Assembly: GCA_019239775.1 (NCBI GenBank)
Contig: JAFAZN010000370.1
Span: 1 to 35,109, forward strand
DNA: 35,109 bases
DNA from: Chloroflexota bacterium
GTDB taxonomy: Bacteria > Chloroflexota > UBA6077 > CF-72
Direction of reading: 5' to 3'
Shown here: piece by piece, positions 22,265 to 24,645 of the stretch
Layout of the letters: every line of letters begins with the position of its first letter
Position numbering within the stretch: the stretch's first letter is position 1
The notes under the pieces: generated by a model
The model's database searches: none
What the model was told of the DNA's origin: nothing
The model's input: the letters and a program-made list of their open reading frames with translations, nothing else
Position numbers and translations under genes: made by a program

Positions 22265-22387
22265 TCAGGCGGCTTTCTTCTCGGCCTTTCGGCACTTGGT
22301 GCAGCGGAGCTCTTTGCTGGTCAGTTTCTTGTGAAATGTCTGGCCACAATTGATGCAGATCTCGCGGCCTTTATCTTTTCTGCCCAT
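22265..22387 (-). CDS. 40-aa zinc-ribbon protein
   Basis: Very small basic protein with two CxxC knuckles: ICINCGQTF and LRCTKCRKAEKK. Four cysteines about 18 residues apart are expected to bind one zinc. The start MGRKDKGREI at 22387 is chosen because the upstream frame (to 22486) runs through the intergenic repeat side and has no family character. Its size and basic charge would suit a nucleic-acid or ribosome contact, but it is not recognisable as bL33, bL36 or another named ribosomal protein. It is divergent from the Pro/Thr-rich gene, with the CGTGACGC array between them. Confidence 0.65.
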   Translation of the reverse strand: MGRKDKGREICINCGQTFHKKLTSKELRCTKCRKAEKKAA

Positions 22388-22467
22388 ACCTATGATTGTG
22401 GCGAGCCGAGGCACTACTTGGCAAAAGTACGCAGCCAGCCGGCCTGTGTGACGGCTTAGCAGCGCCG

Positions 22468-22570
22468 CGTGACGCCTCCGCGTCAACGTGACGCGTTTTC
22501 GCCCAGACGTGACGCTTTTTGGTCCACGCGTGACGCACTAATCGGTCCCGCGTGACGCTTCGCGTGACGC
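22468..22570. repeat. Six direct CGTGACGC words at about 21-bp spacing
   Basis: CGTGACGC begins at 22468, 22487, 22508, 22529, 22551 and 22563, so the steps are 19, 21, 21, 22 and 12 bp. The first four steps are close to two helical turns, which would place the words on one DNA face. The second copy is also half of a 17-bp palindrome, CGCGTCA-ACG-TGACGCG (22479-22495). The last word ends 10 bp before the AGGA ribosome-binding site of the Pro/Thr-rich gene. This is a candidate binding array for an unknown regulator. Confidence 0.85.
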
Positions 22571-22591
22571 CCCCTGTTGCAGGATGGGCGC

Positions 22592-23023
22592 ATGCAAGCC
22601 TGGCACTGGCTCACAACCCATCTCAACGCCGAACGCGTCAGCTGGTTCGGCGCGGGCCTCGGCGCCGCGGCCGTGGGCGTGCTCGGCTACCAGTTGCTCC
22701 TTGCGGCATTCCTGGCCGGACCGCTGCCCGGCCCGCAGCCGTCGCCTGATGCTGTGGTGCAGACCGACCGGCCGACGCCGAGCCCGTTTTCGACGCGCAC
22801 CCCGCGGCTGACGTCAACACCAACGCCGACGCGTACGCCGAATCCCACCCGAACACCGACCGAGACACCGACGCCGCGCCCAACGGCAACGCCGCGCCCT
22901 ACCCCGACGCCAACGTTCGGGGTTGCGCTACCTGATCCAGATCTGCTGGTCGGAGTGGTGGCAACGTTCGCTGCGCGCACAAACGCGGCGCTTCAGCCAC
23001 TGGTGGTGACGCCCCGGCCATGA
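22592..23023 (+). CDS. Membrane protein with Pro/Thr-rich stalk, coupled to ComEC-like gene
   Basis: Unrecognised protein of 143 aa. A short N-terminal segment is followed by one membrane helix at about residues 19-43. A Pro/Thr-rich stretch (48-109, many TPTP and TPRP dipeptide repeats with Arg/Glu) comes next, and a short hydrophobic end (110-143) closes it. The topology suggests an anchored, extended extracytoplasmic stalk; Pro/Thr repeats of this sort are often glycosylated, which is inference. The ATG at 22592 has AGGA 7 bp upstream and is preferred over an in-frame TTG at 22577. Its stop overlaps the start of the ComEC-like gene (ATGA, 23020-23023), so the two are probably made together. 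Confidence 0.75.
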   Translation: MQAWHWLTTHLNAERVSWFGAGLGAAAVGVLGYQLLLAAFLAGPLPGPQPSPDAVVQTDRPTPSPFSTRTPRLTSTPTPTRTPNPTRTPTETPTPRPTATPRPTPTPTFGVALPDPDLLVGVVATFAARTNAALQPLVVTPRP

Positions 23024-24645
23024 CAGTGGTAACCATCTGCGCGGCGGCGCTGGCAGGCATCGTGGCTGGCTTGCTGACTCGCCCAAGTCCGCCGTCCCTG
23101 CTTGCGGCTGGCGCGCTTGCGCTCGTAGCGACCTGGTTGGCGCGCTCTCAGACCCTGGGGCGCACGCTCGGGCTGTTGGCCTGTGCCGCCGCGCTCGGAG
23201 CCCTCCGCGGCTCAGCGCCACCATTTGCGTCGGTAAACGCGCTTACGGCTGTTTCAGGTGCGCTCGGCCCGGTGCGCACAGCCGCGCAAGCCAACATTCG
23301 GGCCTACCTGCCTGAACCGCAGGCGTCGCTTGCGGCCGGCGTGCTGCTCGGCGGCTCTGGCCGACTGGACGCGAGCTTCAAAGCCGATCTGCAGCGCTCT
23401 GGGCTCGGGCACCTGCTGGCTATTGACGGCTTCAAACAGGTCGTGGTGGCGGCCGCCGTTGGTGGTCTGGCGACGCATTTCGTCGGCCCGAGTCTGGGGC
23501 TGGTGCCGCGGCTCGGCGCGGTTGTCGGCTACACGCTGCTCTCGGGCGCGCATCCATCGGCGGAACGCGCCGCGCTGATGGTGACATTGGCGGGTCTGGC
23601 GAGCTTGACCGGGCGCATTGCCGATCCGCTGACGAGCCTCGGCATCGCGGTGCTGCTGATGGCAGGCTGGGATCCCGGGGTCCTGATGGACCTGGGCTTG
23701 CAGCTCAGCCTGTCGGCCACGCTCGGCATCGTGCTGCTGTGGCCAATGCTGCGGCGCGCTTTGCGCCTGTACGTGCTGCCAAGATCTCTGGGCGAACCCA
23801 TTGGCTTGAGCCTCGCGGTGTGCATGGCCTGCCTGCCAGTCACGCTGAGTGTGTTCGACGAGGTCTCGCTCGTTTCGCCGTTGGCGCACGTGCTGGCGAT
23901 GCCGCTGCTACCGGCAGTTCTGCTCGGTGGCGCGGGGTTGGCAATCGCTGGCTCGGGACCGCCGGTTGTGGCAAGCGTCGCTGCCTGGCTGACGTGGCTG
24001 CCGACCTCAGTTCTGGTTTGGGTGATCCACGCCTTCGGCGGCCTGCCGGGCGCAGCGGTGATGACGGGCCGGCTGTCCCAACCCGCTGCCGCCGTACTCG
24101 CGCTCGCGTTGCTGACCTGGGGCATCTGGCACCTGCCCGAGTTGCGCCAGTTGCGTTTGACCTGGCTCAGCTGGCGGGCACGCCACCGTCCGGTACTGAT
24201 GCCTGTTGCGTGCGTCGGCGCGTGTTTGACTGCAACCGTCGCGCTGCACCTATTGCGGCCTGATGGACAGCTCCATGTCGAGCCGCTTGGCCTGCCGCGA
24301 GGGCAGGCGGTGTTCATTCGCGGCCCGACCGGCGCGACGGTGCTGGTGGTGCTGGGTGGTGCCAGCCCTACCCTGCTGGCCAGCCGGGTGGCCGAGCACC
24401 TGGCCGTCTGGGAGCACCACCTCGACTCGGTCGTGGCGCTGGATGCGCGCGCCGCGGCCGTGCTCGGCCCAACGCTCGCGCGCTACCCGTCGGATCGGCT
24501 CGTCGTCGCATCCAGAATACCGCTGGACGTAGAAGTGGGCGGCTCGCAAACGGTCGAGCTCGGCGCCACCGATGGTCAGCTCGTGGTCGTGCCGCTCAGG
24601 TCAGCCCTGACCACTTCTGCAGCCAGACAAGGATCAGCAAATTGA
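23020..24645 (+). CDS. ComEC/Rec2-like membrane protein, shortened
   Basis: Polytopic protein of 541 aa carrying a ComEC competence domain, the channel that passes single-stranded DNA in natural transformation. Recognisable parts are ASLAAGVLLGGSGRLDASFKADLQRSGLGHLLAIDGF (around residues 102-138), LLSGAHPSAERAALMV, and LGLQLSLSATLGIVLLWP. The usual HLLAISGLH motif reads HLLAIDGFK here. The N-terminal OB-type domain is reduced. The C-terminal about 120 residues align in position with the metallo-beta-lactamase domain but lack its HxHxDH motif, so no nuclease or hydrolase activity is expected. It may be a competence channel that uses a separate nuclease, or a diverged paralogue with another role. 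It is coupled to the preceding stalk protein. Confidence 0.8.
   Translation: MTVVTICAAALAGIVAGLLTRPSPPSLLAAGALALVATWLARSQTLGRTLGLLACAAALGALRGSAPPFASVNALTAVSGALGPVRTAAQANIRAYLPEPQASLAAGVLLGGSGRLDASFKADLQRSGLGHLLAIDGFKQVVVAAAVGGLATHFVGPSLGLVPRLGAVVGYTLLSGAHPSAERAALMVTLAGLASLTGRIADPLTSLGIAVLLMAGWDPGVLMDLGLQLSLSATLGIVLLWPMLRRALRLYVLPRSLGEPIGLSLAVCMACLPVTLSVFDEVSLVSPLAHVLAMPLLPAVLLGGAGLAIAGSGPPVVASVAAWLTWLPTSVLVWVIHAFGGLPGAAVMTGRLSQPAAAVLALALLTWGIWHLPELRQLRLTWLSWRARHRPVLMPVACVGACLTATVALHLLRPDGQLHVEPLGLPRGQAVFIRGPTGATVLVVLGGASPTLLASRVAEHLAVWEHHLDSVVALDARAAAVLGPTLARYPSDRLVVASRIPLDVEVGGSQTVELGATDGQLVVVPLRSALTTSAARQGSAN

Follow-up and report, generated by a model that had tools for sequence, protein, structure and literature searches.

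An array of short direct repeats upstream of a stalk-protein and comEC gene pair in a Chloroflexota bacterium probably acts as operator plus core promoter for the stalk-comEC operon, serving a cooperative winged-helix activator of the OmpR/SARP type, with the same layout in use across the genus. The array, the phasing of its boxes, their fixed spacing to a -10-like hexamer, the restriction to one genus and the recurrence at orthologous genes are all read from the sequence itself.

The window is the whole stretch of DNA that was analysed (35,109 nucleotides), one contig of genome G000 (7.2 Mb, 507 contigs). The genus sample consisted of G000 and two further species, G001 and G002, and the comparison set of 38 other Chloroflexota genomes. 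The three genus assemblies are fragmented, with an estimated contamination of 5-8%. Gene calls come from a home-made Markov gene finder, and wherever start codons, operons or transcription starts are given they are predicted. Genome-wide counts come from pattern searches and from searches with R1, a sequence model of the 37-nt array end plus promoter.

Array in the window

The six identical words of the original prediction are six exact copies of CGTGACGC, to which a degenerate seventh, TGTGACGG, can be added. The surroundings are a chromosomal cell-envelope gene region with mraZ (Pfam). Features of the array and its flanks are as follows.

22265..22387, - strand: divergent ORF, 40 codons, four-cysteine zinc-ribbon-like motif (translation), start at 22387
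22447..22454, + strand: degenerate seventh box TGTGACGG, 21 bp 5′ of the first perfect box and in phase
22468..22475, + strand: box CGTGACGC, exact match
22487..22494, + strand: box CGTGACGC, exact match
22508..22515, + strand: box CGTGACGC, exact match
22529..22536, + strand: box CGTGACGC, exact match
22551..22558, + strand: penultimate box CGTGACGC, exact match, 5′ member of the conserved final pair (12-bp step)
22563..22570, + strand: last box CGTGACGC, exact match, 3′ member of that pair
22580-22585, + strand: -10-like hexamer CAGGAT, at a position common to other arrays
22592..23023, + strand: stalk ORF, 143 codons, hydrophobic N-terminal stretch and Pro/Thr-rich repeats
23020..24645, + strand: ComEC-like gene, 541 aa, Pfam Competence PF03772 (E 3.5e-40)

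Start-to-start steps of the six exact boxes are 19, 21, 21, 22 and 12 bp. The spacing of 19-22 bp first described holds for the first four steps but not for the last, and this final 12-bp step is diagnostic. In Markov-1 simulations of the window (n=200) at most two copies of CGTGACGC fell within 110 nt; the array is real and well above chance expectation. The palindrome reported within it is present (TGACGC-CTCC-GCGTCA, 22470-22485) but is 16 bp long rather than 17, with arms of 6 bp, and it is no feature of the other arrays. The region is divergent as described, with the zinc-ribbon-like ORF starting on the - strand at 22387 and the stalk ORF on the + strand at 22592. The supposed ribosome-binding site (AGGATGGG) fared less well: it coincides with the hexamer CAGGAT, more likely a -10 element.

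The stalk ORF and the ComEC-like gene overlap by 4 nt. No Pfam family was found for the stalk ORF in a Pfam search, and the divergent ORF gave a weak ADK_lid match below the Pfam cut-off. The stalk protein sits where comEA often precedes comEC. Its Pro/Thr repeats are variable, while the N-terminal part and a C-terminal VATFAARTN motif are common to the G002 orthologue.

Helical phasing and promoter end

Distances between neighbouring boxes cluster at 11-12, 19-23, 30-33 and about 42 bp, with 13-18 bp almost absent; read as DNA geometry, these are one, two, three and four helix turns. Upstream units frequently read CGTGACGC-TTTTT-N8. Arrays linked to a promoter share one end: a box, 4 nt (mostly TTCG, TTCC or TCCG), a second box, then 8-9 nt (in the 45 aligned cases) and a -10-like hexamer. 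A at hexamer position 2 and T at position 6 are invariant in all 45 aligned array promoters, a curated set. Among uncurated final pairs, 49 of 65 have A and T at that offset, against a mean of 3.6 and a maximum of 11 in shuffles. By their placement the two match A(-11) and T(-7) in a -10 element. The aligned promoters conserve no separate -35 element, and the -10 hexamers of the conserved class (below) are weak.

ATG occurs most often exactly 22 nt past the last box (7 cases), which places transcription start at or near the start codon. The window agrees, with the last box ending at 22570 and the ATG at 22592. Array-driven transcripts may thus be leaderless, and the ATG at 22592 is the predicted transcription start of the window operon. 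If transcription starts there, the penultimate box lies at about -41 to -34, overlapping the -35 position, and the last box at about -29 to -22.

Distribution across genomes

The window genome has about 20 arrays. The pattern CGTGACGCN{9,17}CGTGACGC was found 18 times in G000, 57 times in G001 and six times in G002, with no hit to the reversed control and 0-2 hits in each of the 38 other relatives; a search of the order, which has only 16 genomes, covered all of them and gave the same result. The words are not spread at random through the genome; random spread was one of the two outcomes that the original prediction had named as refuting it. A second pattern, GTGACGCN{3,5}GTGACGC, gave 16, 84 and 15 hits in G000, G001 and G002 and none in the control. 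R1 at E<=0.01 found 21, 45 and 21 sites in the genus and one in the same-family genome G003. At E<=0.001 with stricter filters it found 15, 36 and 16 sites in the genus, counts that are not independent since R1 was trained on genus sequences, and none in the 38 other Chloroflexota genomes, the informative result. The operator system appears to be confined to one genus and to have multiplied there. The predicted sites vary freely in box number but are constant in helical phase and in their distance to the -10.

Seven G001 loci (L102, L108, L109, L114, L115, L122, L123) carry arrays of 11-bp period with up to 34 boxes and no promoter end. These often lie between convergent genes, several near contig ends. 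A G001 repeat with a REP-type look, ACCCGCGTTCCGCTTCGCTCCACGGGGCTTGCG, breaks arrays at L107 (from 1253), L108, L193 and L238, and also lies between the boxes and the -10 of lgt.

Recurrence at orthologous genes

The array precedes the stalk/comEC pair in all three species, so the presence upstream of orthologues that the original prediction had called for is borne out in both other members of the genus. ComEC is 57% identical between G000 and G002, and stalk orthologues lie behind arrays in G002 (L135) and G001 (L120). The G001 array is in contig C379 with the stalk gene at the contig end, and comEC resumes in C610. Arrays are likewise found in all three species at comM (L091, L097 and L190, with only the first residues to identify the gene at L190), tadB (L024, L126, L186) and rplS (L188, L121, L139). 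DUF2851, a TrbL gene, a PEGA gene and one membrane gene each have an array in two species, as does lgt, with an array in G000 and another in G001, where an insertion separates the boxes from the -10. Flanks have diverged at orthologous arrays; boxes, phase and -10 are kept. For array genes common to G000 and G001 the rough chance expectation is 0.15.

Gene content and promoter classes

Pfam families among the array genes include LGT, TrbL, T2SSF, Mg-chelatase/ComM, RcpC/CpaB, ribosomal L19 and CinA. The G002 operon behind the PEGA and TrbL genes encodes DprA, a T4SS pilin and a TraG/HerA-like ATPase (Pfam). Among core DNA-uptake genes, the motif is shared by comEC, comM and tadB throughout the three species, by cpaB in two of them and by cinA in G001. 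We first counted dprA as an array target too, and rejected it: of its upstream regions in G000 and G001, only the former has a box, and a single one. Further array targets are nrdR-like, prmA, ddl, glycosyltransferase and amidohydrolase genes, and a GAF histidine kinase gene with a response-regulator-like gene behind it. The putative regulon is rich in DNA-uptake, Tad-pilus and type-IV-secretion genes but wider than DNA uptake. The original suggestion of a regulator site controlling DNA-uptake genes is largely supported: comM, tadB, cpaB, TrbL/T4SS and cinA suit uptake or transfer, and other targets extend beyond them. Hypergeometric category enrichment is illustrative only, as category sizes were assumed and categories picked post hoc.

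The approximately 62 canonical promoters fall into two classes. The class lacking a G-rich leader holds the conserved DNA-uptake, pilus and secretion genes. In the other, a strongly G-rich stretch (e.g. GGGCGGGCGGGAGGGGGGCGGG) directly follows the -10, and the genes are varied, some facing a convergent neighbour. A search with one version of the G-rich module placed it mostly at arrays.

The G-rich stretch lies 16-60 nt past the last box (L090, L093, L094, L105, L106, L118, L124, L129 and others). It is a possible leader G-quadruplex, and is absent from the conserved DNA-uptake class. Complete array promoters facing the 3′ end of a convergent gene (L106, L110, L113, L124, L132 (-), L179, L182, L185, L187) could possibly give antisense or small RNAs. 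Three genes stand at L019:1050-2685 in G000, the last of them stopping 14 bp short of an array; judged by eye from translation, one encodes an XRE-like regulator and another is IrrE/ImmA-like.

Proposed mechanism and comparison with known systems

A cooperative activator would account for both the helical phasing and the constant interval to a -10-like element, in line with the cooperative regulator site first suggested. We infer protein binding, activation, a start site and a regulator along the following lines. An activator would bind the CGTGACGC boxes side by side on one helix face. The last two boxes would replace the -35 element and place RNA polymerase at the weak -10 hexamer, upstream boxes two turns apart would give cooperative occupancy, and transcription would start at or near the ATG at 22592. 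The same arrangement would be used throughout the genus by a regulon in which DNA-uptake and transfer genes are enriched. Activation is preferred over repression because of box position, and a weak -10 without a conserved separate -35 suits activator dependence. Some arrays, mainly in G001, count against this reading, having no promoter end or facing convergent genes.

The closest likeness is to SARP promoters, where direct repeats are spaced by 11 or 22 bp and 8 bp separate the 3′ repeat from the -10 (PMC10936776). There the AfsR dimer occupies the stretch from -40 to -19, forming a bridge to sigma region 4 (PMC10936776), and PimR binds cooperatively to heptamers with 3-4-nt spacers (PMC5930380). 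The arrays resemble the Streptomyces promoters (AfsR/afsS, PimR/pimM) in having tandem direct repeats one or two turns apart, the 3′ one ending about 8 bp short of a weak -10, an upstream repeat over the -35 position and, by analogy, cooperative binding. They differ in the word, CGTGACGC, in a final step of 12 bp, in upstream steps of about 21 bp and in having up to tens of boxes. Helical phase is the same as with 11 or 22 bp, but the steps are not exactly those: the final one is 12, upstream ones are mostly 21, and 11 is common only in G001. The phylum is another one, DNA-uptake and pilus genes take the place of antibiotic clusters as targets, and the binding protein is putative. With the layout so close to SARP promoters, the simplest reading is an OmpR/SARP winged-helix activator that takes over -35 recognition. 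The layout gives good support to a SARP-like mode of action for the array; that the array is a SARP operator we put forward more guardedly, and the spacing differs in detail.

One motif across uptake and processing promoters is a property of known competence regulons (ComK of Bacillus, SigX of Streptococcus, Sxy/CRP of Haemophilus). Here too one motif precedes several core DNA-uptake genes, but motif, architecture and phylum differ from those regulons. A literature search yielded no described competence regulon or regulator in Chloroflexota, and one with the CGTGACGC motif yielded no relevant paper among those listed.

Alternative explanations

The same promoter architecture could serve the opposite purpose, with the boxes bound by a repressor or by a broadly acting nucleoid-type protein coating one helix face and silencing the promoters. 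A box between -35 and -10 could block polymerase too, and the long promoter-less G001 arrays would suit a coating protein. We nevertheless hold silencing to be rather improbable: the final pair is located where SARP activators sit, and the weak -10 hexamers of the conserved class, with no separate conserved -35, suit a need for an activator. Lower still we place a dispersed repeat without any role in regulation, spread by transposition and tandem duplication, its promoter-like end hitch-hiking. Such a repeat would explain the tandem-repeat-like G001 arrays, those between convergent genes, and the G-rich module that accompanies some of them, and the G-rich class may partly be of this kind. It is at odds with arrays at the same genes in three species despite diverged surroundings, and with the invariant -10 offset.

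That offset, a fixed distance to a conserved hexamer, could also mark the boxes as elements of an alternative sigma-factor promoter instead of an activator operator. This we regard as very unlikely, as the boxes are 8-9 and about 21 nt from the hexamer rather than 16-19, no other conserved element lies between, the hexamer retains the A(-11)/T(-7) of housekeeping -10 elements, and many boxes are far upstream. Direct repeats about 21 bp apart look iteron-like as well, and might belong to a replication origin or partition site. The chance of that is slight in the extreme, given about 20-45 separate sites per genome at varied genes, the canonical ones each tied to a promoter-like end. The plasmid-type pattern of one or a few arrays beside a replication initiator gene was not seen, and the window lies in the chromosomal region with mraZ.

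Candidate regulator

BTAD (SARP) genes are present in all three genus species, and two BTAD proteins are conserved in all three. As the best candidate for the activator we tentatively name one of these, a LysM-TM-FtsK-like-winged helix-BTAD protein of the Tad locus (here LysM-SARP; L101:2483-5956), although the odds are somewhat against it. In G002 it has 1157 aa, with hydrophobic segments at 22-94 and 432-450, two LysM matches and an FtsK-like region, and its gene lies directly upstream of an array. Its C-terminus is a Trans_reg_C plus BTAD module, the winged-helix match being below the Pfam cut-off. A search of solved structures with the C-terminal part gave mainly designed TPR proteins and two weak matches to winged-helix regulators (E ~0.3). 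Orthologues of this protein (C521 in G002) are 54-64% identical in G000 (C411) and G001 (C527), and more distant homologues occur in several other Chloroflexota genera. Within the genus the sequence of the putative recognition helix is RQ[LM]R[FY]RLRR; other genera have a different one.

The second conserved protein is a cytosolic large SARP (contigs C302 of G000, C655 of G001 and C576 of G002; about 80% identical). Its gene lacks an upstream box array, and almost the same recognition helix occurs in the array-less genome G009; for these two reasons it is a second choice only. Array-less genera carry homologues of both candidates. The Tad-locus position and the genus-specific putative recognition helix make LysM-SARP the better one. 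A literature search found nothing relevant on LysM-BTAD proteins of Tad loci.

ToxR-type proteins are membrane-anchored winged-helix activators that act at tandem repeats. If LysM-SARP is the regulator, it would be like them in bringing a membrane-anchored OmpR-type DNA-binding domain to tandem short repeats. The proposed likeness is one of architecture; LysM-SARP differs in that its DNA-binding part is C-terminal, with a BTAD domain, and its outer part has LysM domains. Heptad repeats are reported at a ToxR-regulated promoter (PMC4240540).

Significance

More speculatively, and doubtful as a whole, membrane-anchored LysM-SARP, its LysM domains extracellular, might sense the cell wall or surface, assemble along the helix-phased CGTGACGC arrays and directly switch on the genus-specific regulon of DNA-uptake, pilus and T4SS genes. 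If true, this competence switch would be of a kind for which we found no description, and the first in Chloroflexota. DNA-uptake regulation is known for only a few bacterial groups. The host genus consists of uncultured soil Chloroflexota, and the layout stands at dozens of its genes, DNA-uptake and pilus genes included. The motif, the promoter layout, the listed genes and the candidate regulator together make the predicted system testable in vitro without culturing the organism.
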